Made by a program: the position numbers and the translations under genes
The notes under the pieces: generated by a model
Told to the model about the DNA's origin: nothing
The model's database searches: none
What the model saw: the letters and a program-made list of their open reading frames with translations, nothing else
Source of the DNA: Hyphomicrobiales bacterium
GTDB lineage: Bacteria > Pseudomonadota > Alphaproteobacteria > Rhizobiales > Rhizobiaceae
DNA length: 64,000 bases
Assembly (NCBI GenBank): GCA_900473685.1
Contig: UCNE01000014.1
Span: 186,001 to 250,000, forward strand
Direction: 5' to 3'
Shown here: positions 1 through 18,989 of the stretch, one piece after another
How positions within the stretch are numbered: the first letter of the stretch is position 1
Layout: every line of letters starts with the position of its first letter

Positions 1-193
1 GGTTTGAAGTCAAGGACTGCGGCCGACGCGGCTCTCGCTGCAGCGCAAACAATTCTCAATTTTGTTGGCGCGGAATCTGGTTTTGCCATTATCGCCACCT
101 ATATTGAATGGGTGCAAACGCCTGATCTATCGAGACGCAGACCGGACATCCGGCCATCGCCGGGATTTCGTTGAGAAAGCGACACGCCACGCG

Positions 194-1801: not shown

Positions 1802-3703
1802 ATGAAATCAGGCGCGGACCTGCTGCGGATCGAGAATTTGGGTATCTCGTTCGCGATGCTCGGCGGGCAGATCGATGCTGTCCGAAATGCCAGCCTGCGC
1901 GTGCTGCCAGGCAAGGTGACGGCGCTGGTCGGCGAAAGCGGCTCCGGCAAATCGGTGATCAGCCAGGCGGTGATGGGCATCCTGCCGAAAACTGCCACCT
2001 GCGGCGGCCGCATCCTCTTTTGCGACCCGGCCCATGGCGAACAACCCGTTGACCTTCTGGCCATGCCGCGCGACGGGCGCGAAATCCGCAACCTGCGCGG
2101 CAACCGTATCGGCAAGATTTTCCAGGAGCCGATGACCTCGCTGTCGCCGCTGCACACGATCGGCAACCAGATCAGCGAATCCCTGAAAATCCACACGCCG
2201 ATGTCGGGCCGCGAGCGGCGCGAGCGCACCGAAGAAATGCTCGGCATGGTCGGCTTCCAGAAGCCGGCCCGCGCCTTCGACATGTATCCGTTCGAACTGT
2301 CCGGCGGCATGCGCCAGCGCGCCATGATCGCCATGGCGCTGATCTGCAACCCTTCGCTGCTAATCGCCGACGAGCCGACCACCGCGCTTGACGTGACCAT
2401 CCAGGCGCAGATCCTGCAATTGCTGCGCGGACTGCAGACCAAGTTGAACATGGCGATGCTTTTGATCACCCACGATCTTGGCGTCGTCGCCAATGTCGCC
2501 GACGAGGTCGTCGTCATCTATCACGGCGAGATCATGGAGGCCGGCCCGGTCGAGACGATTTTCCGCAATCCCTCGCATCCCTATCTCAAGGGCCTGATGG
2601 CCGCCGTTCCGCATTTCGATATGAAGCCGGGCGAGCGCCTGAAGGCCTTGCGCGAAGTGCCGGTCAATACGAGCAATCTGCTCGGCAAGAAGAAGATCGT
2701 TGCCGCCGATGAAGCCCTCAAGCCGGAAATCCTGCTTTCGGTGCGCGATGTCAGCAAGACGTTCACCACCCGCAAGTCGAGCTGGCTGACCAAGGATAAC
2801 GCGTCAGCCGTCAAGGCGGTCGATGGGGTCAGCTTCGATATCATGCGCGGCGAATGTCTCGGGCTGGTGGGCGAAAGCGGCTGCGGCAAGACAACGCTCA
2901 GCAAGATCCTGATGCGCGCCGTCACCCCGGATACGGGCGCGGTGATGCTCAACAGCAGCGACGGTCCGATCGACGTCTTGAAGGCTGAAGGCTCCGGGCT
3001 GCAGGAGTTGCGCACCAAGGTACAGATGGTGTTCCAGGATCCCGTCTCCTCGCTGTCGCCGCGCATGACCGTTCAGAACATCCTCAGCGAACCGCTGGAA
3101 ATCCATGGACGCGGCAGCGGCAAGTCCCGCGTCGAGACCGTCAAGGCGCTGTTGAAGGCGATCGGGCTCAGCGAACGCCACCTCAACCGTTATCCGCACA
3201 GTTTTTCCGGTGGCCAGCGCCAGCGCATCGGCATTGCCAGAGCACTGGCACTTGGGCCTGACCTGTTGATCTGCGACGAGCCCGTCTCGGCGCTTGACGT
3301 GTCGGTCCAGGCGCAGATCCTCAACCTCTTGAAGGATCTGCAGAAGGAGCTGGGGCTCACCTATCTGTTCATCTCGCACAATCTCGCCGTCGTCGACTAC
3401 ATGGCCGACCGGATCGCGGTGATGTGCGGCGGACGCATCGTCGAGATCGCGCCACGCGAAACCCTGATGGAAGCACCCGTTCATCCCTATACGAAATCGT
3501 TGCTTGCCGCCGTGCCCTTCCCCGATCTTGACAGGCCGCTCGATTTTTCGATGCTCAACCCAAGCGGTGCCGCCGACAAGCGCAGCTGGGGCAGGCATTT
3601 TTCCGACGAGGGCGAAGAAGACGTGCTGGGGACGGCAGACCTCGGCAACGGCCATCTTGTTCTGGCGCGAAAGAGCGCCGATGTCGGGGAGCTGGTACCA
3701 TGA
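1802..3703 (+). CDS. ABC importer ATPase, two fused nucleotide-binding domains (peptide/opine type)
   Basis: Cytoplasmic ATPase of 633 residues that powers the importer encoded just downstream. It is a tandem fusion of two Opp/Dpp-type domains, as in YejF. Domain 1 has Walker A GESGSGKS (about 44-51), signature LSGGMRQR (about 167) and Walker B ADEPTTALD (about 190). Domain 2 has GESGCGKT (about 357), FSGGQRQR (about 469) and CDEPVSALD (about 493). All catalytic motifs look intact, and each half is followed by the oligopeptide-type C-terminal stretch (NPSHPYLKGL, HPYTKSLLA). Its stop overlaps the binding-protein start (ATGA), so the four genes 1802-7774 form one operon. The substrate cannot be read from the sequence. 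Confidence 0.93.
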   Translation: MKSGADLLRIENLGISFAMLGGQIDAVRNASLRVLPGKVTALVGESGSGKSVISQAVMGILPKTATCGGRILFCDPAHGEQPVDLLAMPRDGREIRNLRGNRIGKIFQEPMTSLSPLHTIGNQISESLKIHTPMSGRERRERTEEMLGMVGFQKPARAFDMYPFELSGGMRQRAMIAMALICNPSLLIADEPTTALDVTIQAQILQLLRGLQTKLNMAMLLITHDLGVVANVADEVVVIYHGEIMEAGPVETIFRNPSHPYLKGLMAAVPHFDMKPGERLKALREVPVNTSNLLGKKKIVAADEALKPEILLSVRDVSKTFTTRKSSWLTKDNASAVKAVDGVSFDIMRGECLGLVGESGCGKTTLSKILMRAVTPDTGAVMLNSSDGPIDVLKAEGSGLQELRTKVQMVFQDPVSSLSPRMTVQNILSEPLEIHGRGSGKSRVETVKALLKAIGLSERHLNRYPHSFSGGQRQRIGIARALALGPDLLICDEPVSALDVSVQAQILNLLKDLQKELGLTYLFISHNLAVVDYMADRIAVMCGGRIVEIAPRETLMEAPVHPYTKSLLAAVPFPDLDRPLDFSMLNPSGAADKRSWGRHFSDEGEEDVLGTADLGNGHLVLARKSADVGELVP

Positions 3704-5601
3704 TCACACGACGCACCACCCTTGGCCTGCTTGCGACCGCTCTCGTACCAGGCGTCGCCCGGGCGACCCCGGAACCGCCATTCCTGCGGCCTTTTCTGCG
3801 GGCTCAGGCCCTGCCCGACCTGAAGGACCGCCTGCCGGCCAATCCACGCCGCGTCAATCTGGCCGCCATGGGCCGGCAGCCCGGCAAGTATGGCGGCACC
3901 GTGCGCATGCTGATCGGCAGCCAGAAAGACATCCGGATGATGACGATCAACGGCTATGCCCGTCTGGTCGGCTATACCGAGGACCTTAAGTTCCAGCCCG
4001 ATATCCTGGAAAGCTTCGACGTTCAGGAAGGCCGGATTTTCACCTTCAAGATCCGCGACGGCCATCGCTGGTCGAACGGCAGCTACCTGACTTCCGAGGA
4101 TTTCCGCTATACCTGGGAAGACGTCATCCTCAACAAGGAGCTGCGCAAGGGCGGTATCCAGCGTGAGCTTCTCGCCGATGGTGAGGGGCCGGCATTCGAG
4201 ATCATCGATAACCTGACCGTCCGCTACACCTGGAAAGCCCCCAATCCGGATTTTCTCCCGGGTCTTGCTGCCGCCTCGCCGGTCGTCATCCTGATGCCGT
4301 CGGCCTATATGCGGCACTTCCACAAGAAGTATCAGGATGATTTCCGCCTGTCGGCGCTGATGAAACGGTACCGCGTCAAGAAATGGGCCGACCTACACAT
4401 CAAGATGTCGCGCCAGTACCGCCCGGAAAATCCCGAGCTGCCGTCACTGGATCCGTGGATTCCCCGTACCGCGCCGCCGGCCGAGCAGTTCGTATTCGAG
4501 CGCAACCCGTTCTTCCACCGGATCGACGAAAACGGCCTGCAGCTGCCCTATATTGATCGCTGGCTGCTCAATATCAGCTCGTCGGAAATCATCGCTGCCA
4601 AGACCGGCGCGGGCGAGACGGACCTGCAGTCCACCGGCATCGACTTCTCCGACTACGCCTTCTTCAAGGATGCCGAGAAGCGTTATCCGGTGAAGGTCAA
4701 TCTGTGGAAGCGTATCCAGGGTTCGCGCCTCACCCTCTTGCCCAACCTCAACTGCAGCGACAAGGTCTGGCGCGATCTGTTCTGGGATGTGCGCGTGCGC
4801 CGCGCGCTGTCACTGGCGATCGACCGGCGTGAAATCAACATGGTGAGCTTTTACGGCCTTGCCACGGAGAGCTCCGATACGATCCTGCCGGAGAGCCCGC
4901 TTTACAAACCGGAATATGCCGCTGCATGGGCAAGCCACGATCCCGATCAGGCCAACCGGCTGCTGGACGAGGCCGGGCTGACCAACCGCAACAGCGATGG
5001 CATCCGCCTGCTGCCGGATGGCCGGGAAGCCCAGATTGTCGTCGAGACCGCCGGTGAGAGTACGCTCGAGACCGACGTGCTGGAGCTCATCAAGGACCAC
5101 TGGTCGAAAATCGGCTTGGCGCTCTTTATCAAGACCTCGCAGCGGGACGTTTTCAGCAGCCGGACGATGGGCGGCGACATCATGATGTCCATGTGGTCGG
5201 GCATCGAAAATGGCGTGCCCACCGCCGATATGAACCCCGGCGACCTTGCTCCGAGTAGGGACGATCAGTTTCAATGGCCGGTTTGGGGCATGTACTACTT
5301 GTCCATCGGGCAGAACGGAACTGCGCCGGAATTGCCAGAAGCGATCAAGCTGGTCGAGCTCCTCAAGGAATGGCGAAAGACCGTCGACACCGGGGAAAAG
5401 ACGCGGATCTGGCACGAGATGCTGGAGATCTATACGCAGAGCGTCTTTTCGATCGGCATTGTCAACGCCGCACTGCAGCCGATCATGCACTCCGCCTATA
5501 TCCGCAATATCCCCGAAAAAGGCCTCTACGGCTTTGACCCGACCTGTTATCTCGGGGTCTACATGCCAGATACGTTCTGGTACAGCGAAGAGGTTAGCTG
5601 A
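3700..5601 (+). CDS. ABC substrate-binding protein, family 5 (peptide/opine type)
   Basis: Periplasmic binding protein of 633 residues in the SBP_bac_5 family, which delivers oligopeptides, opines or oligosaccharides to Opp-type permeases. The N-terminus carries a twin-arginine-like signal (TRRTTLGLLATAL, then an Ala-x-Ala type cleavage region near residue 24), so export through Tat is likely. The family core is recognisable in the region around YGGTVRMLIG and WSNGSYLTSEDFRYTWEDV. It is somewhat longer than the usual 500-600 residues. The start overlaps the ATPase stop by four bases and the first permease follows after 2 nt. Gene order (ATPase, binding protein, permease, permease) is unusual because the binding protein is not first. 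Confidence 0.92.
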   Translation: MITRRTTLGLLATALVPGVARATPEPPFLRPFLRAQALPDLKDRLPANPRRVNLAAMGRQPGKYGGTVRMLIGSQKDIRMMTINGYARLVGYTEDLKFQPDILESFDVQEGRIFTFKIRDGHRWSNGSYLTSEDFRYTWEDVILNKELRKGGIQRELLADGEGPAFEIIDNLTVRYTWKAPNPDFLPGLAAASPVVILMPSAYMRHFHKKYQDDFRLSALMKRYRVKKWADLHIKMSRQYRPENPELPSLDPWIPRTAPPAEQFVFERNPFFHRIDENGLQLPYIDRWLLNISSSEIIAAKTGAGETDLQSTGIDFSDYAFFKDAEKRYPVKVNLWKRIQGSRLTLLPNLNCSDKVWRDLFWDVRVRRALSLAIDRREINMVSFYGLATESSDTILPESPLYKPEYAAAWASHDPDQANRLLDEAGLTNRNSDGIRLLPDGREAQIVVETAGESTLETDVLELIKDHWSKIGLALFIKTSQRDVFSSRTMGGDIMMSMWSGIENGVPTADMNPGDLAPSRDDQFQWPVWGMYYLSIGQNGTAPELPEAIKLVELLKEWRKTVDTGEKTRIWHEMLEIYTQSVFSIGIVNAALQPIMHSAYIRNIPEKGLYGFDPTCYLGVYMPDTFWYSEEVS

Positions 5602-5603
5602 CC

Positions 5604-6602
5604 ATGCTGCGTTACATTTTCTGGCGTATCATGGCGATGATCCCGACATTGGTGATTATCTCCGCGCTGGTCTTCACCATCATCGAATTGCCGCCGGGCG
5701 ATTACTTCGAGAGTTACATAGCCGAACTTCGCGCCCAGGGCGAAGCGGTGGACACCGCCGAGATCGATGCCTTGCGCAAGGAGTACGGTTTCGATCAGCC
5801 GCCGGTGATCCGCTACTTCCATTGGGCCACGGGCTTGTTGCAGGGCGATTACGGCTATTCGTTCGAGTATCAGCTGCCAGTCAACGAGGTGGTCGGCGAC
5901 CGGCTCTGGCTGACGGTGCTGGTCTCCTTCGTCACCATCCTGTTCACATGGCTGATCGCCTTTCCGATCGGCATCTATTCCGCCACGCACCAATATAGCT
6001 GGGGCGATTACGGGCTGACCTTCCTCGGCCTGATCGGTATCGCCATTCCGAATTTCATGTTCGCGCTGATCCTGATGTATTTCGCCAATATCTGGTTCGG
6101 CACCTCGATCGGCCATCTGATGGATCAGAAATATCTGGCCGAACCGATGAGTTGGGAGAAGGCGAAGTCCATTCTCGAGCATCTGTGGATCCCCGTGCTG
6201 ATCGTCGGCACCGCCGGCACGGCCGGCATGATCCGCCGCCTGCGCGCCAATCTGCTCGACGAACTGCAAAAACAATATGTCGTGACCGCCCGGGCAAAGG
6301 GCTTGCATCCGTTCCGCGCGCTGGTCAAATATCCGCTGCGCATGGCACTCAACTTCTTCATCTCGGATATCGGCTCGATCCTGCCGGCAATCATTTCCGG
6401 AGCCGAAATCACGGCGATCGTGCTTTCGCTCGAAACGACAGGACCGATGCTGATAAAAGCGTTGCAAAGTCAGGATATGTATCTGGCCGGCTCATTCCTG
6501 ATGTTCCTGGCATTCCTCACCGTGATCGGCGTGCTGATCTCAGACATTGCGCTCGCATTCCTCGATCCGCGCATCAGATTGCAAGGCGGTAGCACCAAGT
6601 GA
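5604..6602 (+). CDS. ABC importer permease, OppB/DppB type
   Basis: Inner-membrane permease of 332 residues, first of two in the peptide/opine-type importer. It starts with a membrane span (residues about 9-29) followed by the periplasmic loop and further spans characteristic of the OppB/DppB family. The cytoplasmic EAA-like coupling loop appears around VVTARAKGLHPFRALVKYPLR, with the conserved A-x-x-K-G pattern. The gene begins 2 nt after the binding-protein stop and overlaps the next permease start by four bases. Confidence 0.92.
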   Translation: MLRYIFWRIMAMIPTLVIISALVFTIIELPPGDYFESYIAELRAQGEAVDTAEIDALRKEYGFDQPPVIRYFHWATGLLQGDYGYSFEYQLPVNEVVGDRLWLTVLVSFVTILFTWLIAFPIGIYSATHQYSWGDYGLTFLGLIGIAIPNFMFALILMYFANIWFGTSIGHLMDQKYLAEPMSWEKAKSILEHLWIPVLIVGTAGTAGMIRRLRANLLDELQKQYVVTARAKGLHPFRALVKYPLRMALNFFISDIGSILPAIISGAEITAIVLSLETTGPMLIKALQSQDMYLAGSFLMFLAFLTVIGVLISDIALAFLDPRIRLQGGSTK

Positions 6603-7774
6603 CGGTATCCCTCCCCCAATCCGGCGAACCGCTGTCGCATTACGTCTCGACAGCCCCCTTCGATCCGCATTCCGTCGATGTGATGACGGAGGAACAGTCG
6701 CGGATCTATCAGGCCTCGCAGTTGCGGCTGATGTGGTGGAAATTCAAGAAACACCGGCTTGCGCTGTTTTCACTGTATTTCCTCGCCATTCTCTACGTAA
6801 CCATTGCCATCGTCGAGTTCCTGGCCCCCTACAATCTGCATACCCGCAACGTCGATTTCATCCATTCGCCGCCACAAAGCGTCCATCTGTTCAACGATGG
6901 AAACTTCGTCGGACCGTTCGTCTATGGCCGCACGATGACGCTGGACATGGATACGCTGCGGCGAATCTATACGGAAAATAAGGACCAGGTCGAACCGCTC
7001 CGCTTCTTCTGCCGGGGCGACGGCTACAAATTCTGGGGTCTTGTTGAGACCAATGTCCATCTGGTTTGCCCGGCCAAGGACGGACAGCTCTTTCTTCTCG
7101 GCACTGATCGCCTTGGCCGCGACGTGCTGTCGCGTATCCTCTACGGCGCCCGGATATCGTTGACCATCGGTCTGCTCGGTATCACCATGAGCTTCGTGCT
7201 GGGCATCACCATCGGCGGGCTTGCCGGTTATCATGGCGGCATCTTCGACCTCATCGTCCAGCGCATTATCGAAGTGTTGCAATCGATACCCAGTATCCCG
7301 TTGTGGATGGCGCTCGCGGCCATCATGCCGGTCACCTGGAGCCCGATCCTGATCTACCTGGGCATAACGGCCATTCTCGGCCTGCTCGACTGGACGGGGC
7401 TGGCGCGCGCCGTCCGCTCGAAACTGCTGGCCCTGCGCGAAGAGGACTACGTTCTGGCAGCCCAGCTGATGGGTGCCGGATCAAGCCGTATCATCGGCCG
7501 CCACCTGGTCCCCGGCTTCATGTCGCACCTGATCGCCACCGCGACCCTTGCGGTCCCCGGCATGATCCTTGGCGAGACGGCCCTGAGTTTCCTTGGTCTT
7601 GGTCTCCGTCCGCCGATCACCAGCTGGGGTATTCTGCTGACGGAAGCCCGCAGCGTCAGCGTCATTGCTTTTTATCCCTGGCTGTTGTTTCCAATCATCC
7701 CGGTCATTCTCGTGATTCTGGCGTTCAATTTCCTGGGCGATGGTCTGCGTGATGCCGCCGATCCGTATAAGTGA
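6599..7774 (+). CDS. ABC importer permease, OppC/DppC type
   Basis: Second inner-membrane permease of the importer, 391 residues. It begins at a GTG overlapping the stop of the previous gene. An N-terminal cytoplasmic tail of about 50 residues and the first membrane span (LALFSLYFLAILYVTIAI) precede a long periplasmic loop, then GTDRLGRDVLSRILYGARIS, a hallmark of the OppC/DppC family. The coupling loop is visible near EEDYVLAAQLMGAGSSRII. The periplasmic loop (about residues 75-175) is larger than in many OppC proteins. The next gene starts 72 nt downstream on the same strand, so read-through into the glycosyltransferase genes is possible. Confidence 0.92.
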   Translation: MTVSLPQSGEPLSHYVSTAPFDPHSVDVMTEEQSRIYQASQLRLMWWKFKKHRLALFSLYFLAILYVTIAIVEFLAPYNLHTRNVDFIHSPPQSVHLFNDGNFVGPFVYGRTMTLDMDTLRRIYTENKDQVEPLRFFCRGDGYKFWGLVETNVHLVCPAKDGQLFLLGTDRLGRDVLSRILYGARISLTIGLLGITMSFVLGITIGGLAGYHGGIFDLIVQRIIEVLQSIPSIPLWMALAAIMPVTWSPILIYLGITAILGLLDWTGLARAVRSKLLALREEDYVLAAQLMGAGSSRIIGRHLVPGFMSHLIATATLAVPGMILGETALSFLGLGLRPPITSWGILLTEARSVSVIAFYPWLLFPIIPVILVILAFNFLGDGLRDAADPYK

Positions 7775-7846: not shown

Positions 7847-9055
7847 GTGACGCGCCGGATCGAAGACGCCCGCATCCTGATGTACAGCCACGACACGTTC
7901 GGTCTGGGTCATCTCAGGCGGTGCCGGACGATCGCACATTCGCTGGTCGAGGATTATCGCGGCGTCAATATCCTGATCATTTCAGGGGCGACGATCGCCG
8001 GTGCGTTCGACTACCGGGCGCGCGTTGATTTCGTCAAGATTCCCAGCGTTATCAAGCTGCGCAACGGCGAGTACACCTCGATGGACAGGCATATCGACCT
8101 GCACGAGACGATGAAGATGCGCAAATCGATCATCCGTCACACGGCAGAAACGTTCCAGCCCGACATCTTCATCGTCGACAAGGAACCGATGGGCCTGCAG
8201 GGCGAAGTCGAGGACACGCTGGCCTATCTGAAAAAGCAAGGAACGACCCTGGTTCTTGGTTTGCGCGAAGTCATGGATGCGCCGCATCTGCTCGATGCCG
8301 AATGGAAGCGTAATGATGTGCTGCGCAAGATCGGCCAGTTCTACGATAGCGTCTGGGTCTATGGCCCGCCGGACTTCTACGATCCCCTCGTCGGCCTCGA
8401 CGTGCCTCAGACTGTGCGCGGCAAGATGGATTTCGTCGGCTTTCTGCAGAGAAGCATCTCGCAGGACGTCGAATCCGAACACAAGCCCAAGGGCGACTAT
8501 ATCCTGATCACCACCGGTGGCGGCGGTGATGGTTCGGACCTGATCCATGACGTGATCGACGCCTATCAGGAGGACCCGACGCTGACGCACAAGGCGCTGA
8601 TCGTGCTTGGCCCCTACATGCCGGCCAAGCAGCGCCACAAGCTGATCCTGAAATGCGCCAAGATCCCCTATGTCGAGGTCATCGAGTTCGACAACCGGAT
8701 GGAAGAGCTAATCGCCGGCGCCAAAGGCGTCGTCGCCATGGGCGGCTACAACACCTATTGTGAAATCCTGTCCTTCGACAAGCCGGCGCTGATCGTTCCC
8801 CGGGTGATGCCACGGGAAGAGCAACTGATCCGCGCCAGCCGGGCGGCCGAACTGGGCCTCATCGATATGCTTCTTCCGGAACAGGCAGCCGATCCCATGC
8901 GCTTTGCCGCAGCACTGAAGGCCCTGCCGGATCGCGATCCGCCCTCCAAGAGCGCCAAGGGCATGACGCTTGAAGGCCTGGCGAACATCTCGCAGATCGT
9001 CGGAGAATGGCTCGGCCGCCGCGACCGCGAGCATTTGACGGTCGTAAAAGGTTGA
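7847..9055 (+). CDS. GT-B glycosyltransferase, MurG-like (first of two paralogues)
   Basis: Predicted cytoplasmic or membrane-associated glycosyltransferase of 402 residues with a MurG/GT28-like GT-B fold. The N-terminal domain has FGLGHLRRCRTIAHSL near residues 17-32, the C-terminal nucleotide-sugar domain has the Gly-rich TTGGGGDGSDLI and the diagnostic MGGYNTYCEIL stretch. The protein encoded at 10300-11445 shares both signatures (GIGHLARASRIARAL; QAGYNTVCDIL), so the two are paralogues. GTG start with an AGAGG ribosome-binding site about 9 nt upstream. Donor and acceptor sugars are unknown; neighbours suggest assembly of a surface or exported glycan. Confidence 0.8.
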   Translation: MTRRIEDARILMYSHDTFGLGHLRRCRTIAHSLVEDYRGVNILIISGATIAGAFDYRARVDFVKIPSVIKLRNGEYTSMDRHIDLHETMKMRKSIIRHTAETFQPDIFIVDKEPMGLQGEVEDTLAYLKKQGTTLVLGLREVMDAPHLLDAEWKRNDVLRKIGQFYDSVWVYGPPDFYDPLVGLDVPQTVRGKMDFVGFLQRSISQDVESEHKPKGDYILITTGGGGDGSDLIHDVIDAYQEDPTLTHKALIVLGPYMPAKQRHKLILKCAKIPYVEVIEFDNRMEELIAGAKGVVAMGGYNTYCEILSFDKPALIVPRVMPREEQLIRASRAAELGLIDMLLPEQAADPMRFAAALKALPDRDPPSKSAKGMTLEGLANISQIVGEWLGRRDREHLTVVKG

Positions 9056-9062
9056 GCCGGAA

Positions 9063-10310
9063 TTGACCCAACGCCGCAAGATCGTCGTGGTGCTGAAGGG
9101 ATATCCGCGTCTATCAGAAACCTTTATCGCCCAGGAATTGCTTGGACTGGAACGGGCCGGTTTCGACCTCGAACTGGTGGCATTGCGCCAGCCGACGGAC
9201 AAAAAGCGCCATCCGATCCATGACGAAATCCGCGCTCCGGTCCATTATCTGCCGGAATATCTGCATGAGGAACCGCTTCGGGTCACGCGTGCGCTCTTCC
9301 GCTGCCTGCCAAAACCCGGTTTCTGGCGCGCTTTGCCCGCGTTCTTTGGCGATCTCTGGCGCGACCGCACGCGCAACCGGGTTCGCCGCTTCGGCCAGGC
9401 GATGGTTCTCTCGGCCGAATGGCCAGCAGGCGGCGAATGGCTGCACGCGCATTTCATCCACACCCCGGCCTCGGTCGCCCGCTATGCCAGCATGATCACC
9501 GGCATCGGCTGGACCTGCTCGGCCCATGCCAAGGACATCTGGACATCGCCGGAGTGGGAACTGGCTGGCAAGCTCGCCAGCACCCGCTGGACCGTGACCT
9601 GCACGCAGACCGGCTTCGAGCACCTGCGCCATCTTGCAGGCGGCAAGCCGCATGTGCACCTGAGTTACCACGGCCTCGATCTCAGCCGTTTCGGCCCGTT
9701 TGAAGGCACCCGCCCAGGCTACGACGGCTCCGATCCGGCTCACCCCGTCACGATCGTCAGCGTCGGCCGCGCGGTCGAGAAGAAGGGCTTCGATATCCTT
9801 TTGCGGGCGCTGAGCCTTTTGCCTGCCGGTCTCAACTGGCGGTTCGTCCATATCGGCGGCGGCGATCTTTTGAAGAAGCTTCAAGCACTCGCATCCGAAC
9901 TTGGCATCGCTGAGAAAATTGTCTGGCATGGATCACTGTCGCAAACCGAAGTGCTGCAGCAATATCGCGACGCCGATATTTTTGCGCTCGCCTGCCGCAT
10001 CACTGCCGATGGTGACCGGGATGGGTTGCCCAATGTGATTGTCGAGGCATCAAGCCAGGCGCTGGTCTGCATATCGACTGATATTTCCGGGATACCGGAG
10101 CTTCTTACCGATGGCGAAAACGGCTTTGTCGTCCCGCCGGAATGCCCGCAAGCGCTTTCACGTGCCTTGGAGCAGGCCATCCGCGATCCGGCGCTACGCA
10201 AGCGCCTGGGGGAAGCAGCCGAACGCAAGGTCCGGGGTCACTTCGACCATCAGACCAGCATCCGCCAATTGAAAGACCTGTTTGAGAGTGAGTGGCGGAA
10301 TGACCGATAA
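9063..10310 (+). CDS. Glycosyltransferase family 4
   Basis: Retaining GT-B glycosyltransferase of 415 residues (GT4, Pfam Glycos_transf_1 type). The N-terminal domain begins with IVVVLKGYPRLSETFIAQEL, typical of GT4 enzymes acting on surface polysaccharides; the C-terminal domain contains VSVGRAVEKKGFDILLRAL and the EX7E-like segment GLPNVIVEASSQALVCISTD. TTG start, 7 nt after the previous gene. Its end overlaps the start of the next glycosyltransferase by 11 nt, indicating translational coupling. The three genes 7847-11445 probably act on the same glycan. Confidence 0.88.
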   Translation: MTQRRKIVVVLKGYPRLSETFIAQELLGLERAGFDLELVALRQPTDKKRHPIHDEIRAPVHYLPEYLHEEPLRVTRALFRCLPKPGFWRALPAFFGDLWRDRTRNRVRRFGQAMVLSAEWPAGGEWLHAHFIHTPASVARYASMITGIGWTCSAHAKDIWTSPEWELAGKLASTRWTVTCTQTGFEHLRHLAGGKPHVHLSYHGLDLSRFGPFEGTRPGYDGSDPAHPVTIVSVGRAVEKKGFDILLRALSLLPAGLNWRFVHIGGGDLLKKLQALASELGIAEKIVWHGSLSQTEVLQQYRDADIFALACRITADGDRDGLPNVIVEASSQALVCISTDISGIPELLTDGENGFVVPPECPQALSRALEQAIRDPALRKRLGEAAERKVRGHFDHQTSIRQLKDLFESEWRNDR

Positions 10311-11445
10311 CCGGCCGGGAGGCCCCCGCGCCTTTTTCTACGTGCAGCATCTGCTCGGCATCGGCCATCTTGCCCGGGCAAGCCGTATCGCCCGCGCGCT
10401 GGCCGAAGACGGTTTCGAGGTGACGGTCGTTACCGGCGGCACCCCCGTACCCGGTTTCCCCGGCCCGCTCGTTCAGCATGTAGCCCTTCAGCCGATCACG
10501 TCAGGTGATGCTGGCTTTTCGGGGCTTGCCGATATCGATGGCAATCCGGTCGATGACGCCTTCAAGGAAAGCCGCAAGGAACAACTGCTCGCAGCCTTTC
10601 ACCAAAGCCAGCCCGATATCGTCATCATCGAAGCATTCCCGTTCGGCCGCCGCCAGGTCCGGTTCGAACTTCTGCCGTTGCTCGAGACGATTTCGGCGAT
10701 GGAAAACAAGCCGTTGGTCGTCACGTCGCTACGCGATATCCTGCAGGAACGCTCCAAGCCCGGCCGGGACGAAGAAACGGTTGCCTTGGTGAAGCAGTAT
10801 TTTGATCGCGTTCTGGTGCATGGCGACCCGGCCTTCGCCCAGCTGGAAGACACGTTTCCGCTGGCTGCCGAAATTACTGACAAAGTCATCTATACCGGGC
10901 TGGTCGCAGCCCCCGCCCCTGCACAGCCAACAGAGCGTTTCGACGTCATCGTCTCGGCCGGTGGCGGTGCCGTCGGCAATGCCTTGATCCGCGCCGCCCT
11001 CGAAGCAGCAAAATCGACCGGAAACTCGCTGTCCTGGGCCTTGATAACCGGCCCCAACCTGCCGCAGTCCGATTTCGACGCGATCTCGGCCGATTCGCCT
11101 TCCCATGTCAGCGTCTACCGCTTCCGTCCGGATTTCGCGAGCCTTCTGGCCGGTGCGAAGCTGTCGGTCTCGCAGGCGGGCTACAACACGGTTTGCGACA
11201 TCCTGCGGGCCGGATGCCATGCCCTGCTCATCCCCTTCACGGCTGGTGGTGAAACCGAGCAGACGGTGCGGGCCGAGCGGCTCGAAAAGCTTGGGCTGGC
11301 CCACGTTCTGACCGAGGATGATCTGGCAGCGGAGAGCATGACGCGGGCGATCGAAACAGCGCTTGCAGCGACGAACCGCCCGCCGCACACGCTCGATCTT
11401 CACGGCGCGCAGCGCACCGCCGAAATCCTGCGCGGGTTGCTTTAA
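10300..11445 (+). CDS. GT-B glycosyltransferase, MurG-like (second paralogue)
   Basis: Glycosyltransferase-like protein of 381 residues. The GIGHLARASRIARAL motif near the N-terminus and SQAGYNTVCDILRAG in the C-terminal domain match the protein encoded at 7847, making a MurG-like paralogous pair around a GT4 gene. The ATG at 10300 is preferred over an upstream GTG at 10282 because it leaves a clean N-terminus (MTDNRPGG) and a short overlap with the preceding gene. The function is inferred only from fold motifs and neighbours. Confidence 0.8.
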   Translation: MTDNRPGGPRAFFYVQHLLGIGHLARASRIARALAEDGFEVTVVTGGTPVPGFPGPLVQHVALQPITSGDAGFSGLADIDGNPVDDAFKESRKEQLLAAFHQSQPDIVIIEAFPFGRRQVRFELLPLLETISAMENKPLVVTSLRDILQERSKPGRDEETVALVKQYFDRVLVHGDPAFAQLEDTFPLAAEITDKVIYTGLVAAPAPAQPTERFDVIVSAGGGAVGNALIRAALEAAKSTGNSLSWALITGPNLPQSDFDAISADSPSHVSVYRFRPDFASLLAGAKLSVSQAGYNTVCDILRAGCHALLIPFTAGGETEQTVRAERLEKLGLAHVLTEDDLAAESMTRAIETALAATNRPPHTLDLHGAQRTAEILRGLL

Positions 11446-11452
11446 TCGCCGG

Positions 11453-12130
11453 TCAGACCGTGCCGATCACCATGAAGCGGGTATATTTCTTCATCTTCAG
11501 CGATCCGGCAAAGGCGACGTGCGACAGCGACGTCTGGTCCTTGAAGGCTTCCAGCGACGGCACGCAGTTGATGTGGGTCGGCTCGCTGAAATAATCGTTC
11601 GACTGCAGCAGCACCTTCGTCCCGCGCGGCAATAGAGCCAGCCATGCCGGCAGATCGGCAATGTGTTCGCAGCTGGTATTGATGACGAGATCGGCGCCGC
11701 GGGTGCTGTAGTCGACCGTGTACATATCGTGCGTGGTCGTGCGGAAACGCTCACCAACTTTGGCGTTCAGCGTCGCGGCGATTTCGGCGACGGCCGGATC
11801 GATGTCGATGCTCTCGAACAGGTCGATGTCGAAACGGCTGTCATCGAAACACATCGCCGGAAGCACGCCATACCAGCCGCCGAGCAGGACGATGTGCTTA
11901 AATTTTCCGCCAAGGCTTTCAAACAGCTTTTGGCGTGCCCATATCTTGCTTCCAACCTGCTTGTGGTTGAAGGCCGTGCCGAGGTCCGCATCCGGATATT
12001 TGGCGATGACTTTCGCAAGGCCTTCTATCAGAGAGCTTCCCGTATAGGCGGACAGACCGCGGATGATATCGAAGGCACTCTCGTGCCAATCTGTTGTGTT
12101 TGCTTCGTTTGATCGGGTGGTTTTCATCAT
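11453..12130 (-). CDS. SAM-dependent methyltransferase-like protein
   Basis: Soluble protein of 225 residues that resembles a class I SAM-dependent methyltransferase. A motif I-like strand-loop (IVLLGGWYGVLPA), an acidic residue after the second strand (FESIDIDP) and a motif similar to VINTSCEHIADLPAWLALLPRGTKVLLQSND support this. It converges on the second MurG-like glycosyltransferase (7 nt between stops) and diverges from another methyltransferase-like gene with only 38 nt between start codons. A role in methylating a sugar or lipid of the neighbouring glycan is an inference. No obvious ribosome-binding site precedes the start, and a second Met directly follows. Confidence 0.68.
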   Translation of the reverse strand: MMKTTRSNEANTTDWHESAFDIIRGLSAYTGSSLIEGLAKVIAKYPDADLGTAFNHKQVGSKIWARQKLFESLGGKFKHIVLLGGWYGVLPAMCFDDSRFDIDLFESIDIDPAVAEIAATLNAKVGERFRTTTHDMYTVDYSTRGADLVINTSCEHIADLPAWLALLPRGTKVLLQSNDYFSEPTHINCVPSLEAFKDQTSLSHVAFAGSLKMKKYTRFMVIGTV

Positions 12131-12168
12131 GCGCGTGTTGTAGTCTGGACTTTTCTGGAGTGCAAGGA

Positions 12169-12768
12169 ATGCAAGTCAACCTGAAGGATGCCACCTCCCT
12201 TTCGCCGCCCTTGGAGGCGGGAAAGGACATACCGCATCTGGCAGGACTGGGCGCAACCATGCGGCAGGTCTTTGCCGCCCATTTCATGCGCGACTGCCCG
12301 CACATCCTGGAAATCGGTGGCCATATCCGGCCAATCACCCCTTATCTGACCCATCATCCGCTCTCGGTGACCTCCGTCGATCCGAAGACGGAAGCCTATG
12401 AGGCAAACGAGCTGAACGGGCAGCAATGCCATGTGCGGCATATTCCGGCCAAGTTCCAGCAGATCGACTATCATTATCAGCCTGGAAGCTATGGCCTCGT
12501 GCTGCTCGGTTATTCGCTCAAATCCTTCGGCCGCAAGGACCCGCTTGGCGACTTGCTGTTCTCGCTGATCGAAAATGCCAAGACCGTCGTCATCGAATAT
12601 GCGCCGGAACTCGAACGCGCCGCCTCCCAGGTCCCGCATATCGTCAGCCGTCCGGCGGTGACGATCCGTGGACAATTCGATCTTCATCTGCACGATCCGG
12701 AGATCGCCGGCACACCCTATGCTGCCCGGCGTTTCTACGTCCTTGACACCCGCTACACGGCCAGTTGA
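12169..12768 (+). CDS. Methyltransferase-like protein
   Basis: Protein of 199 residues with a Rossmann-like SAM-binding pattern (HILEIGGHIRPITPYL, then LSVTSVDPKTEAYEANEL) but a poorly conserved remainder. The ATG at 12169 has a GGAGTGCAAGGA stretch upstream; codons before it (open from 12094) look non-coding. Its stop lies at the start of the ABC exporter-like gene (TTGA overlap if that gene uses its TTG). Together with the divergent gene at 11453-12130 it forms a tight pair of methyltransferase-like proteins. Catalytic activity is not proven by the motifs seen. Confidence 0.65.
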   Translation: MQVNLKDATSLSPPLEAGKDIPHLAGLGATMRQVFAAHFMRDCPHILEIGGHIRPITPYLTHHPLSVTSVDPKTEAYEANELNGQQCHVRHIPAKFQQIDYHYQPGSYGLVLLGYSLKSFGRKDPLGDLLFSLIENAKTVVIEYAPELERAASQVPHIVSRPAVTIRGQFDLHLHDPEIAGTPYAARRFYVLDTRYTAS

Positions 12769-12776
12769 ATCTCCCC

Positions 12777-15494
12777 ATGGAAAAAAGCATAGCCCGCTAC
12801 ATCTGGACGCACACGAGAGGCCAGCAGCTCTGGATCCTTTTGGTCGTCGCCGTCTCGATGATCCCCTATTTCCTGTCGTTTGACCTGCCCAAGCAGATCG
12901 TCAACGGGCCGATCCAGGGTCAGGGGTTTGACCAGCCGGGTGCCACGCAAACCTTCATGAACATCAGTTTCAACCTGCCCTGGCTCGGAACCGTGACGCT
13001 GTTTGACGGCGTTGAACTGACCCGCATGCAGACCCTGTTTGCCCTCAGCATGGTTTTCCTGCTGCTGGTTATCATCAACGGCCTCTTCAAGTTCTACATC
13101 AATACCTACAAGGGCCGGCTCGGCGAACGCCTGCTGCGCCGCATCCGCTTCGAACTCGTAGACCGGATCCTGCGTTTCCCGCCCGGCCAGTTCAAGCGCA
13201 TGAAGGGCGCCGAAGTGTCCAGCATGGTCAAGGACGAAGTCGAGCCGCTCGGAGGCTTCACTGGCGATGCCTTCGTCCAGCCCGCTTTGCTCGGTGGCCA
13301 GGCTTTGACGGCCCTGTTCTTCATTTTCATGCAGAATACCTGGCTTGGCCTGATCGCCGCGGTCATGGTCGGCGTCCAGGCCGTGATCATCCCGCGCATG
13401 CGCCGGCGCCTGCTGGTACTTGGCCGCGAACGCCAGATCACTGCCCGCGAACTGGCCGGCCGCGTCAGCGAGATCGTCGACGGCATCGGGACCATCCACG
13501 CCTATGACACATCCAACTACGAGCGCGCCGACATCGCCTCGCGCCTCGGCCGGATCTTCAAGATCCGCTACGACCTTTACCAGTGGAAGTTCCTGGTCAA
13601 GTTCATCAACAACTTCCTCGCCCAGCTGACCCCGTTCCTGTTCTACTGCATCGGTGGCTACCTGGCGCTGCAGGGCCGGCTCGATATCGGTCAGTTGATC
13701 GCCGTCATCAGTGCCTACAAGGACCTGCCCGGCCCGCTGAAGGACCTGATCGACTGGGACCAGACCCGCCAGGACGTCCAGGTGAAATATGTCCAGGTGG
13801 TCGAGCAGTTCAGCGTCGACAAGACCATCGATCCGGCCATCCAGGCCATCGCCATCAAGGACGCCGGTTCGCTGAAACATCCGCTGGCTGCGGTCAACCT
13901 GTCGCTGGCCGACGATAGCGGCGCCAAGCTTCTGGAGCGGGTGTCGGTCCAGATCCATCCCGGCGAAACCGTTGCGATCGTCGGTGGCGCGGCCGGCGGC
14001 GGCGACATGCTGGCGGAAGCGTTTGCGCGGCTGACATGGCCGGAAAGCGGCAAGGTAACGGCGGGTGGCGACGATCTTCTGGAACTGCCGGAATCGGTGA
14101 CCGGACGCGCGATCTCCTATGTGTCTTCCGACGCCTATTTCTTCTACGGCAGCCTTCGCGACAATCTGCTTTACGGCCTCAAGCACGCGCCGCTGAAGGA
14201 AGCCGTTTATGAAGGCAGCGGTGCCGCGCATCGCAAATGGCAGATCGCCGAGGCGAAACTAGCCGGAAATCCGGACTATGACGTCAACAGCGACTGGATC
14301 GACTACGACGCCGCCAACGCAACGAACCGCGACGATCTCTTCACGCCTGTTCTTTCAGTGCTGGATACGGTGCAATTGTCGAAAGACATTCTCGATCTGG
14401 CCCTGCGCAGCACGGTCTCCCCGAACGAACATCCCGGGCTTGCCGAGGGTATTGTCGAGATGCGCCACGCCCTGCGCGAAGAACTCGAAGAGGCGGGCCT
14501 CAGCAGCCTCGTCGTCTCCTTCGAGCCTGGCGCCTATAATACCGAAGCGACCGTCGGCGAAAACCTTCTGTTCGGCACGGCAACCGGCCCGGCGTTCATC
14601 GGCAAAGCAATCGGCAAGAACGCCTATTTCCGCTCTGTCGTCGGCCGCTCCGGCCTTGATCGCGTCCTGTTCGACATGGGCTACAGCATCGCCGAAAACG
14701 CGGTGGAACTGTTCGCCGACCTGCCGCCGGATCATCCGTTCTTTCAGCAGCTGACGTTCATGACGGCCGATGACATTCCCGAATATCAGCTGCTGCTGCA
14801 GAAATTGAAGGGCAAGGGCTTCGATGCTGCATCAGAGGACGACCGCGGCCAGATCATCCGCCTGAGCTTCCGCTATGTCGAACCACGGCATCGTTTCGGT
14901 CTGCTGACCAGCGAACTGATGGCCAAGATCGTCGATGTCCGCCGCCAGTTCCATGACGGCATGCCCGAGAGCATGCGCGGCGATATCGAACGCTACGATC
15001 CGGAGCACTATCTGGCGTCTGCAAGCCTGATGGACAACATCCTGTTTGGGCGCATCAGTCACAAGCATACCGACGGGTCAAAGCGCATCCGCTCGATCGT
15101 CAGCTCGCTTTTGAATTCGCTCGGTCTTCTGGAGCGGGTCATCGATATCGGCCTGGATTTCAATCTTGGCGCGGGCGGCAAGCGCTTGACGGCGGTGCAG
15201 CGCCAGAAGCTCAATCTGGCACGCGCGCTGGTCCGCAAGTCGGAATATTACATCTTCAACCGGCCGCTGCCGGGCCTCGATCACCGTCTTCAGGACGAAA
15301 TCGTCCGCGATGTGCTGAAGCTGGTACGCCGCGACGGACGCGATCCGGCCGTCGTCTGGGTCCTGTCCAATACGGGCCTGGCAAACCTGTTCGACCGCGT
15401 TCTGGTATTCGACAGGGGCTTGCTTGTGGAAGAAGGAACCCATGCGGCGCTGGTTGAGAATAACGGTATCTTTAAGGAGCTTGTGTCATCATAA
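12777..15494 (+). CDS. ABC exporter-like membrane protein with degenerate, insertion-bearing ATPase domain
   Basis: Large protein of about 905 residues. Residues 1-350 form an MsbA/HlyB-type exporter membrane domain with several spans. The region after about 380 follows the ABC ATPase order but with lost chemistry: the Walker A position reads GGAAGGGD (about 403-410, no Lys-Ser/Thr), the signature reads TAVQRQKLNLARAL (about 805) instead of LSGGQ, and the Walker B position reads YYIFNRPLPGLD (about 825-836) without Asp-Glu. About 300 extra residues sit inside the domain, and the exporter motif resembling SIRENIxYG appears three times (SLRDNLLYG about 459, TVGENLLFG about 592, SLMDNILFG about 750). 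ATP hydrolysis seems unlikely. An alternative TTG start lies at 12765. A cNMP-binding protein is encoded 111 nt downstream. Confidence 0.85.
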   Translation: MEKSIARYIWTHTRGQQLWILLVVAVSMIPYFLSFDLPKQIVNGPIQGQGFDQPGATQTFMNISFNLPWLGTVTLFDGVELTRMQTLFALSMVFLLLVIINGLFKFYINTYKGRLGERLLRRIRFELVDRILRFPPGQFKRMKGAEVSSMVKDEVEPLGGFTGDAFVQPALLGGQALTALFFIFMQNTWLGLIAAVMVGVQAVIIPRMRRRLLVLGRERQITARELAGRVSEIVDGIGTIHAYDTSNYERADIASRLGRIFKIRYDLYQWKFLVKFINNFLAQLTPFLFYCIGGYLALQGRLDIGQLIAVISAYKDLPGPLKDLIDWDQTRQDVQVKYVQVVEQFSVDKTIDPAIQAIAIKDAGSLKHPLAAVNLSLADDSGAKLLERVSVQIHPGETVAIVGGAAGGGDMLAEAFARLTWPESGKVTAGGDDLLELPESVTGRAISYVSSDAYFFYGSLRDNLLYGLKHAPLKEAVYEGSGAAHRKWQIAEAKLAGNPDYDVNSDWIDYDAANATNRDDLFTPVLSVLDTVQLSKDILDLALRSTVSPNEHPGLAEGIVEMRHALREELEEAGLSSLVVSFEPGAYNTEATVGENLLFGTATGPAFIGKAIGKNAYFRSVVGRSGLDRVLFDMGYSIAENAVELFADLPPDHPFFQQLTFMTADDIPEYQLLLQKLKGKGFDAASEDDRGQIIRLSFRYVEPRHRFGLLTSELMAKIVDVRRQFHDGMPESMRGDIERYDPEHYLASASLMDNILFGRISHKHTDGSKRIRSIVSSLLNSLGLLERVIDIGLDFNLGAGGKRLTAVQRQKLNLARALVRKSEYYIFNRPLPGLDHRLQDEIVRDVLKLVRRDGRDPAVVWVLSNTGLANLFDRVLVFDRGLLVEEGTHAALVENNGIFKELVSS

Positions 15495-15605: not shown

Positions 15606-16088
15606 ATGGGCACGATTATGCTGTTGAAGGATGAAGTTCAGATGCTGCGGCGTGTGCCGCTGTTTTCGAATGTTGAACCGGGCAAGCTGAAGCTTCTCGC
15701 GTTTACCTCAGACCGCGTCAGCTACGATCCCGGCGAAGCGCTGTTTCACCAGGGCGACACTGGCGATGCAGCCTATGTCGTGCTGGCCGGCAAGGCGGAC
15801 ATTCTCGTCGATTCCTCCACCGGCCCGATCAAGATCGCCGAAGTCGAGACCAATTCCATCGTCGGCGAGATCGCCATCCTCTGTGATGTCTCGCGAACCG
15901 CCACGGTGCAGACGACGACACCACTGGAGGCCCTGCGCATCCGCAAGGAACATTTCCTCAAGCTGCTAACCGATTTTCCCGAAATCACCATCGAGATCAT
16001 GCGGGTTCTGGCCGATCGCCTCAGCCACACGACAAGCGAGCTGTCCGAAGCCCGCAGCCGTGCCCGCAAGGACACTGACCTGCACTGA
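15606..16088 (+). CDS. Stand-alone cyclic nucleotide-binding domain protein
   Basis: Small cytoplasmic protein of 160 residues consisting of one CAP-type cNMP-binding domain. The phosphate-binding cassette is intact: VGEIAILCDVSRTATV contains the ribose-binding Glu (about 88) and the phosphate-binding Arg (about 97). There is no DNA-binding helix-turn-helix, so it is not a Crp/Fnr activator; it more likely senses cAMP or cGMP and acts on a protein partner. Its position right after the degenerate ABC exporter-like gene makes that protein the natural candidate partner (inference). ATG at 15606; a second in-frame ATG at 15618 is possible. Confidence 0.85.
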   Translation: MGTIMLLKDEVQMLRRVPLFSNVEPGKLKLLAFTSDRVSYDPGEALFHQGDTGDAAYVVLAGKADILVDSSTGPIKIAEVETNSIVGEIAILCDVSRTATVQTTTPLEALRIRKEHFLKLLTDFPEITIEIMRVLADRLSHTTSELSEARSRARKDTDLH

Positions 16089-18158: not shown

Positions 18159-18989
18159 GTGAACGAAAACGTGTTTCGGGTGCGGTTATGGGGAGTGCGC
18201 GGCAGCCTCCCGGTCTCGGGGGCCGAGTTCCAGAACTATGGCGGCAACACCATCTGCATCGAGATGCAGTGTGGTCCTCACAGGCTATTGTTCGATGCCG
18301 GCTCCGGCCTGATGCCGGCAGGCCAGGCGCTGAAGTCCGAAGGCGTTTCCGATTTCAACCTGTTTTTCACCCACTGCCATTACGACCATATCGTCGGCCT
18401 GCCCTACCTACCGGCGCTGTTTGACCCACATGCCTCCGTGACCTTGTGGTCCGGACATCTGGCCGGACGCATGTCCACCCGCCAGATGATCGGCGAATTC
18501 ATGCGGCCGCCGTGGTTTCCGGTGGAGCCGGATATCTGCCGCGCCTCGATCAACTGCCGCGATTTCCGCTCCGGTGATGCGCTGGTTCCCTATCCCGGCG
18601 TGACGATCCGCACCGGCAGCCTCAATCATCCGGGCGGCGCCATCGGTTACCGCGTCGAGTGGGGTGGCCGCGCGGTGGCGCTGGTGACCGATACCGAACA
18701 CAAGCCAGGCACGCTCGATCCCGCCGTGCTCGACCTGATCGATGGCTGCGATCTCTTCCTCTACGATTGCATGTATACCGACGACGAAATGCACCGCCAT
18801 GTCGGCTACGGCCATTCCACGTGGCAGCAGGGCATCCGGCTGGCCAAGACGGCAAAGGCCAGGCAGGTGGCCTTCATCCACCATTCGCCGCTGCGCACCG
18901 ACATCGAACTCGATGAAATCCAGCGGCTCGCCGGCCAGGAATTCAACGGCGCGATTACCGCCCGCGACGGCCAGGTGATCGATCTATGA
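18159..18989 (+). CDS. MBL-fold metallohydrolase
   Basis: Cytoplasmic metallo-beta-lactamase-fold hydrolase of 276 residues. The metal-binding HxHxDH motif is THCHYDH (about 70-76), with further ligands in the His of NHPGGAIGYRV, the Asp of VTDTEH and the His of GHSTW. The N-terminus RLWGVRGSLPVSG is shared with RNase Z/PhnP-like members that cleave phosphodiesters. GTG start with a GGCGAGAGAG ribosome-binding site. It could hydrolyse a cyclic phosphodiester, which would fit a locus with a cNMP-binding protein, but this is speculative. Confidence 0.85.
   Translation: MNENVFRVRLWGVRGSLPVSGAEFQNYGGNTICIEMQCGPHRLLFDAGSGLMPAGQALKSEGVSDFNLFFTHCHYDHIVGLPYLPALFDPHASVTLWSGHLAGRMSTRQMIGEFMRPPWFPVEPDICRASINCRDFRSGDALVPYPGVTIRTGSLNHPGGAIGYRVEWGGRAVALVTDTEHKPGTLDPAVLDLIDGCDLFLYDCMYTDDEMHRHVGYGHSTWQQGIRLAKTAKARQVAFIHHSPLRTDIELDEIQRLAGQEFNGAITARDGQVIDL

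Follow-up and report, generated by a model that had tools for sequence, protein, structure and literature searches.

What becomes of an ATP-binding cassette (ABC) exporter once it has lost the residues that handle ATP? We address this question for a gene in a 64,000-nucleotide stretch of rhizobial DNA (the window: positions 186,001 to 250,000 of contig UCNE01000014.1, assembly GCA_900473685.1), whose product combines an exporter-type transmembrane domain (TMD) with an altered nucleotide-binding domain (NBD), and which is followed by a gene for a cyclic-nucleotide-binding (CNB) protein. In our reading, which we hold to be evenly poised between right and wrong, the product would be a membrane protein derived from an ABC exporter that works independently of ATP hydrolysis, is switched by a cyclic nucleotide monophosphate (cNMP) through the CNB protein and the pseudo-NBD, and serves a glycan pathway. 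The gene and its membrane domain are as follows.

12777-15494, plus strand: pseudo-ABC exporter of 905 residues, with an ATG start and the stop at 15494; an in-frame TTG lies 12 nucleotides upstream, at 12765
12777-13811, plus strand: exporter-type TMD, residues 1-345, matching PF00664; ratio of nonsynonymous to synonymous substitution rates (dN/dS) 0.032

Both parts of an ABC exporter can be detected in the protein. Pfam places ABC_membrane (PF00664) at residues 87-312 (E 5.7e-22, above the cut-off), and ABC_tran (PF00005) scores 40.1 bits against a cut-off of 25, covering only residues 386-485, the first part of the domain; the second part is recovered at about residues 743-904, where ABC-exporter models of NCBIfam match again. 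The MsbA model of NCBIfam stays below its cut-off (165.8 bits against 602), and no Pfam match to a peptidase, C39 included, was found in the protein. An AlphaFold model of the whole chain (pLDDT 74.6, pTM 0.62) has solved ABC exporters as its nearest Foldseek matches, namely PCAT1, P-glycoprotein, TM287/288, and MsbA, the top one being the PCAT1 core (8vox, E 6e-15); across the NBD and its insert pLDDT is mostly 75-92, with a drop at about residues 471-510. What the protein lacks are the Walker A consensus GxxxxGK[ST], the LSGGQ signature, the Walker B Asp-Glu pair, and the H-loop His. The TMD and the fold thus place it among the ABC exporters, whereas its catalytic motifs do not qualify it as an ATPase.

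The initial annotation had described an exporter membrane domain followed by an ABC domain in which Walker A, the signature, and Walker B are lost, and both Pfam and our alignment bear this out. Homologs came from a scan of GTDB genomes, from which we took the best 80 of 286 candidate loci (64-100% identity; Rhizobium, Sinorhizobium, Mesorhizobium, and kin). The rhizobial alignment holds 58 sequences, the window's own and those of 57 of the 80 loci, out of 81 sequences in total including the window.

13983-14006, plus strand: dead Walker A, GGAAGGGD, residues 403-410; the Lys position is Gly (29) or Ala (29) in 58/58 rhizobial sequences
15186-15209, plus strand: dead signature, LTAVQRQK, residues 804-811 (LTAVQ at 804-808); Q808 in 58/58
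15246-15281, plus strand: dead Walker B and D-loop, YYIFNRPLPGLD, residues 824-835 (YYIFNR at 824-829)

None of the 58 sequences keeps the Walker A Lys, and the residue after it is acidic in 57. The Walker B Asp is replaced by Asn in all 58, as is the Glu by Arg (45), Gln (10), Ala (2), or Lys (1), and the H-loop His occurs in 0/58; in the window protein, both the Q-loop position (451) and the H-loop position (864) are Ser. No aromatic residue appears in any of the 58 at the eight A-loop columns inspected (18/104 family-wide). The residues after the signature (R809, Q810, and K811, the end of QRQK) are invariant in this alignment. Close Rhizobiales homologs have therefore lost the same Lys, Asp-Glu, and His, and intact Walker motifs, which to the initial annotation would have meant that the window's copy is merely degraded, were not found within the rhizobial group.

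The NBD is also much longer than usual. In ordinary exporters, Walker A and the signature lie about 100 residues apart; here the distance is about 400, so about 300 residues are extra. They belong to a threefold repeat.

14112-14510, plus strand: repeat unit 1, residues 446-578, the Q-loop region; motif SLRDNLLYG at 14151-14177
14511-14984, plus strand: repeat unit 2, residues 579-736; motif TVGENLLFG at 14550-14576; also backed by the helix/strand order in AlphaFold2 models
14985-15281, plus strand: repeat unit 3, residues 737-835, with the dead signature and, at its end, Walker B; motif SLMDNILFG at 15024-15050

The insertion and the three motif copies had both been noticed before; the copies begin exactly at residues 459, 592, and 750, as proposed, and prove to belong to a true internal repeat. 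In hhalign, whose E-values here are pairwise rather than database-calibrated, units 1 and 2 align at E 1.5e-7, units 2 and 3 at E 3e-13, and units 1 and 3 at E 2e-8 (probability 94-98). Twelve control comparisons against different parts of these proteins gave E 0.04 at best, and column-shuffled comparisons (40 run) gave E 0.18 or worse among the six listed. The Asn of each of the three motif copies is invariant in 58/58 rhizobial sequences, the window's included. Because the canonical Q-loop region opens unit 1 and the canonical signature helix and Walker B strand close unit 3, the normal Q-loop-to-Walker B segment seems in effect to have been lengthened by two further copies. The extra residues are real, then, and the idea of an insertion stands to that extent; they are a tandem expansion of the NBD's own Q-loop and helical segment. 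A foreign insert was considered and rejected, since the segment is internally repetitive and matches the signature-bearing unit 3, even though, folded alone (pLDDT 82), it has no PDB match below E 0.82. The structural comparison with ABC domains that the initial annotation had suggested thus succeeds for the whole model and finds no counterpart for the insert on its own.

A profile of the insert traces the family through 131 of 385 genomes of the class Alphaproteobacteria. Two overlapping draws across the phylum had matches in 31/398 and 24/299 genomes, every match in the same class or nearer, and none in genomes of other classes among those listed; plasmid matches were confined to alphaproteobacterial genera, among the matches listed. 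A phage origin was rejected, with no phage match at E 1e-20. The profile yielded 183 insert-bearing ORFs (open reading frames), 179 of them of at least 780 residues, which clustered to 104 members including the window's. The motif census of these members rests on a column alignment that is shaky for the most divergent rows. Ser or Thr after the Walker A Lys position occurs in 8/104 and an acidic residue in 84; the Walker B Asp is kept in 13/104 and is Asn in 79; exact LSGGQ occurs in 0/104. In a TMD tree rooted with ordinary exporters, the window's clade of 32 rows (SH-aLRT 99) contains no Walker A Lys, and all 32 rows have lost the Walker B Asp-Glu and the H-loop His as well. Our trees are quick trees with long branches; rows L180 and L182-L186, which have anomalous TMDs or long branches, are part of the rooted TMD tree and were left out of the tree that places NBD-less relatives and of the loop-length comparison below. 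As far as the alignment tells, motif loss is graded across the class and complete in the window's clade for these residues.

The initial annotation had argued from the open frame of 2.7 kb that this is not random decay, and had named dN/dS as the measurement to make; the result is strong purifying selection rather than a neutral ratio. The median dN/dS of the ABC gene is 0.055 against 12 congeners, with the TMD at 0.032, the insert at 0.077, and four dead-motif windows at 0.022-0.042. Two of the glycosyltransferases encoded nearby have values of 0.10 and 0.12, above that of the ABC gene, and the CNB neighbor, at 0.039 (11 congeners), is close to it. All 80 loci carry one open ORF of at least 880 residues, and all match from query residue 1. 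We therefore give next to no credence to a decaying, functionless copy: the loss of motifs would fit it, as would a stop codon within the gene of a same-genus genome (locus L036 in G013, 78% complete; possibly an assembly error), but the dN/dS result already refutes it, and the uniformly open frames and the breadth of the family also count against a pseudogene.

If not to ATP, to what might the protein respond? The gene that follows it encodes a small CNB protein.

15606-16088, plus strand: CNB protein of 160 residues with a single cyclic-nucleotide-binding domain (PF00027, E 8.1e-19, residues 38-122)
15864-15902, plus strand: predicted phosphate-binding cassette of the CNB protein, GEIAILCDVSRTA; strict pattern GE-x-[AGS]-...-R[TSA]A

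Its place among CNB-domain proteins follows from the PF00027 match together with the cassette visible in the alignment. We take the Glu and Arg of the cassette to be ligand-contacting residues and the cassette itself to serve in phosphate binding; the strict pattern is present in 142 of 154 family CNBs. A six-frame search found a CNB partner in 155 of 162 distinct members, 143 of them downstream on the same strand within 1.2 kb and 12 fused at the C terminus, Azospirillum and Ruegeria plasmids being among the carriers of fusions. These numbers supersede counts made by ORF picking in the window's family (73 adjacent and 8 fused of 122, a lower bound); the control was made by ORF picking, and in it a same-strand CNB gene follows only 4 of 1772 other genes of those loci. 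Downstream CNB ORFs have a median length of 158 residues (range 81-268). In Sinorhizobium the CNB protein is annotated as a 'Crp/Fnr family transcriptional regulator', an identity that we rejected given its length and the lack of a helix-turn-helix (HTH) family: in the window's CNB protein Pfam lists no HTH family at E up to 1, and no DNA-binding domain was found. With the two genes so regularly adjacent or fused, the ABC and CNB proteins probably work together.

Unusual members were also seen. Three fused ABC-CNB copies in one genome (L221-L223, genome G214) all have degraded ABC motifs and lack the strict CNB cassette pattern. A divergent group (L182, L183, L184, L219, and L229) has the insert but lacks a CNB partner, and its TMD is anomalous, as would fit a loss of the partner that goes together with change in the TMD.

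The loops through which an exporter TMD touches its NBD bear on whether the pseudo-NBD may still act. In ABC exporters, the two intracellular loop stretches ICL1 and ICL2 contact the NBD.

13125-13238, plus strand: ICL1 stretch, E117-E154, 38 residues in 75/75 NBD-bearing rows
13446-13568, plus strand: ICL2 stretch, R224-R264, 41 residues in 75/75 NBD-bearing rows

Relatives without an NBD provide the comparison. A fused member used as query retrieved proteins from Roseobacter plasmids, 412-434 residues long (P0002, P0003, and another in L233), that have this TMD, an extra N-terminal stretch, and no NBD; ABC_membrane is the sole Pfam match in P0002 and P0003. Their genes (L234:11773-13077, L232:11695-12933, L233:11773-13077), annotated merely as 'ABC transporter transmembrane domain-containing protein', lie in plasmid copper clusters next to genes for TolC, a copper oxidase, and copper-binding proteins. 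A TMD profile revealed further short-ORF second copies in nine genomes plus one partial copy; in eight of these genomes the ORF encodes a TMD alone (328-413 residues), and the ninth (G257) is broken by a stop. Among these alphaproteobacterial NBD-less TMDs is a set of 328-400 residues made up of L266:5068-6111, L267:5045-6247, L269:5862-6869, and L272:5246-6250, and also those in L268, L270, and L271; ORF picking did not pick up a CNB gene in L266-L272. The NBD-less forms fall provisionally inside the family (support 84). Both loops are shorter in the 7/7 NBD-less proteins compared (ICL1 31-36 residues, ICL2 28-39), a set without L233, L268, L270, L271, and the broken L273. The loops are thus constant where an NBD is present and shortened where it is absent. 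It appears that TMDs of this lineage can persist when no NBD is attached, and that the pseudo-NBD, where kept, is probably still mechanically engaged.

The surrounding genes suggest what the pair might serve. The CNB gene, the nucleotide cyclase, and the glycosyltransferase cluster were not covered by the initial annotation.

62-1543, plus strand: predicted class III nucleotide cyclase (PF00211, E 3.6e-7); S. meliloti and R. etli have an annotated cyclase in the corresponding position
1802-7774, plus strand: Opp-type ABC system, with a double ATPase (1802-3703), SBP_bac_5 protein (3700-5601), and permeases (5604-6602 and 6599-7774)
7847-11445, plus strand: three glycosyltransferases (7847-9055, 9063-10310, and 10282-11445); three are at the same place in R. 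etli
12094-12768, plus strand: 224-residue protein overlapping the start of the ABC gene; a similar ORF in 11/76 Rhizobiaceae-like loci
18159-18989, plus strand: hydrolase of the metallo-beta-lactamase (MBL) fold; weak match to a cyclic-nucleotide phosphodiesterase model (NF041851, 50 bits against a cut-off of 400)

On the plus strand the window thus reads cyclase, Opp-type double ATPase, SBP_bac_5, two permeases, three glycosyltransferases, the small gene (whose 224-residue product has no Pfam or NCBIfam match), dead ABC, and CNB, with a minus-strand methyltransferase-like gene lying in between. R. etli p42e has the same order, from a DUF3095 gene and a sugar-nucleotide dehydrogenase gene through the cyclase to RHE_RS24195-RHE_RS24190, and the window genome likewise has DUF3095 and dehydrogenase genes upstream of its cyclase. 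The DUF3095 protein (L275:11397-12575, E 8.9e-135) is possibly part of the same signaling set. The cluster of S. meliloti RCAM1750 is alike, from the cyclase HB773_24185 to the CNB gene HB773_24130, with some genes added or unannotated and with glycosyltransferase genes close to the ABC gene. The four Opp-type genes keep their order in S. meliloti and R. etli and come after the fused ABC-CNB gene in Azospirillum; in Azospirillum B510, that gene lies by Opp-type genes, glycosyltransferases, and a polysaccharide deacetylase, with no cyclase listed in the stretch examined. Homologs of the glycosyltransferase at 10282 occur in 65/76 Rhizobiaceae-like and 16/45 divergent loci, lower bounds from flanks of about 8 kb; the neighbor tallies were made by ORF picking, with L132 left out and L230 and L231 outside the gene set. 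The MBL-fold hydrolase gene is directly downstream of ABC-CNB in several loci, and its product could end a cyclic-nucleotide signal.

Taken together, these observations suggest how a branch of alphaproteobacterial ABC exporters might have become a cyclic-nucleotide-switched membrane protein. The pseudo-ABC protein would form a homodimer, and the CNB protein would bind cAMP or cGMP, supplied by enzymes like the cyclase that opens the cluster, and would dock on the pseudo-NBD. Ligand binding would then move the pseudo-NBD, which would still grip the conserved ICL loops, and this motion would open, close, or position the TMD without ATP hydrolysis. The cargo or client would most likely be a glycan or glycolipid of the three cluster glycosyltransferases, to judge by the neighborhood only. 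Other branches may have CNB-ABC pairs that still use ATP; cNMP control would therefore probably have come first, with ATP use lost later. A more specific version strikes us as possible though rather doubtful: the protein would be a cyclic-nucleotide-gated transporter, flippase, or channel whose TMD is switched not by ATP but by the CNB subunit together with a triplicated pseudo-NBD that is blind to ATP; its lineage would begin with CNB-ABC exporters that may be ATP-competent, pass through dead ones, and end in TMDs without an NBD; and the rhizobial cluster would be self-contained, making and sensing its cyclic nucleotide and handling a glycan. The initial annotation had offered a regulated scaffold, flippase, or channel in place of an ATP-driven pump. 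That inference is supported in part: a regulated, non-pumping role fits the CNB partner, the NBD-less relatives, and the constant loops, with scaffold, flippase, and channel as candidate forms.

Several observations weigh against a cNMP-switched, ATP-independent protein. The TMD, the part that would move, is poorly modeled, with many 10-residue blocks below 60. Even in the rhizobial alignment the signature is not lost everywhere, as 5/58 sequences have LTGGQ, although LSGGQ occurs in 0/58. The expectation that the same residues would be dead in all homologs holds for the rhizobial group and fails family-wide: the Walker A Lys is kept in 25/104 members (Arg in 18), the Walker B Glu in 25/104, and the H-loop His in 16/104, and member L157 is nearly intact, with GKT, DE, and His together and LSGAQ as its signature. 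On the signaling side, 7/162 members are without a CNB, 12/154 CNBs lack the strict cassette pattern, and cyclase homologs were found in only 9/76 Rhizobiaceae-like and 6/45 divergent loci, some of them weak, which are lower bounds from flanks of about 8 kb whereas the window's cyclase lies 11 kb from the ABC gene. CNB domains can also bind other ligands: that of HetC binds ppGpp, and cAMP gave no protection, according to the available portion of PMC10986499. Finally, the NBD-less forms occur in other gene contexts; they tell us that this type of TMD can stand alone, not what the window protein does.

Among the rivals, a static scaffold leads, followed by half of a heterodimer and then by residual ATP binding. 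A scaffold would move nothing and would tether the glycosyltransferases, or else the Opp-type system, to the membrane, and the CNB protein would control assembly. The lost ATP-site residues, the glycosyltransferase neighborhood, and the large extra helical surface without a solved counterpart would all suit it. We nonetheless consider it unlikely: the TMD shows the strongest constraint among the regions compared and its ICL lengths do not vary, so that movement of the TMD seems to matter, and the three NBD-less relatives examined in annotated records have copper genes and TolC as neighbors rather than glycosyltransferases.

It is less probable again that the protein is the regulatory half of a heterodimer whose ATP-hydrolyzing half-transporter is encoded elsewhere, as in degenerate-site exporters. 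Exporters with one degenerate site are common, according to the accessible text of PMC7756269, and a partner could exist, given that this genome has at least five half-size exporters with intact Walker A and LSGGQ or LSGGE. However, a search with four query exporters (E 1e-25) found, in 134 loci, a single case (L221) of another full exporter gene near the family's ABC gene, and the 64-kb window has none; moreover, with Walker A, Walker B, signature, and H-loop all altered in one chain, neither composite site would receive an intact side. We are more skeptical still that ATP binding persists at an unusual site and that ATP-driven closure without hydrolysis drives transport. GxxGSGK[DE] survives in many members that fall outside the dead clade, as does NEAT in some, and nucleotide binding alone suffices for translocation in TmrAB, as stated in the part of PMC7756269 at hand. 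Against this, the window's group has replaced the Walker A Lys and Ser/Thr, the Walker B Asp and Glu, the Q-loop Gln, and the H-loop His, and has no aromatic residue at the A-loop columns inspected.

How does a cNMP-switched exporter derivative compare with known systems? The window protein has the TMD fold and NBD frame in common with the half-size exporters MsbA, PCAT1, and TM287/288 (PF00664 plus PF00005); in contrast to these, it has lost the catalytic motifs, carries a threefold NBD helical segment, and has a CNB partner. Degenerate-site exporters such as TM287/288, TmrAB, and TAP resemble it in having lost catalytic residues under selection, but in these one of two sites is degenerate and the other hydrolyzes ATP (from the available text of PMC7756269), whereas the window chain has lost the motifs of both site halves and has no linked partner. 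HetC of Nostoc also brings an ABC exporter and a CNB domain together, and in HetC function depends on that domain; as described in the accessible sections of PMC10986499, that domain is N-terminal and binds ppGpp, and it is accompanied by a C39 peptidase and an essential ATPase. The window's family, by contrast, carries its CNB at the C terminus or as a separate protein; no peptidase was found in the window protein, whose ATPase motifs are dead. Should the cNMP switch be real, CFTR and SUR1 would be somewhat alike in using the ABC frame for gating: they are ABC exporters turned into a channel and a channel regulator. Both still bind ATP, and to our knowledge neither has a CNB domain or a repeat expansion.

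A literature search, made without most subscription journals, found no paper on an exporter family that combines lost motifs with a repeated NBD segment and a partner of the CNB type. For S. meliloti, the tags SMb21262-21264 and SMb21266-21270 gave no result, a weak negative as these numbers were presumed. An R. leguminosarum ABC operon, RL2975-RL2977, is connected with exopolysaccharide and desiccation tolerance (Vanderlinde 2010, as cited in the available part of PMC5596212); it is at most a tentative candidate for the window gene.

ABC exporters are the textbook ATP-driven pump, and one branch of them seems to have swapped ATP for a signaling nucleotide. The intermediate steps are alive in related genomes, from motifs nearly kept through motifs partly and wholly lost to an NBD that is gone. 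This opens a testable question: can an exporter TMD work without ATP, and what does the pseudo-NBD do? Current names hide the link between the two genes, as the annotated rhizobial records examined call the ABC gene either 'ABC transporter ATP-binding protein' or, in other cases, 'ABC transporter transmembrane domain-containing protein', while in Sinorhizobium the CNB gene bears the regulator name given above. If our reading is true, rhizobial nucleotide cyclases would gain a candidate target other than a transcription factor.

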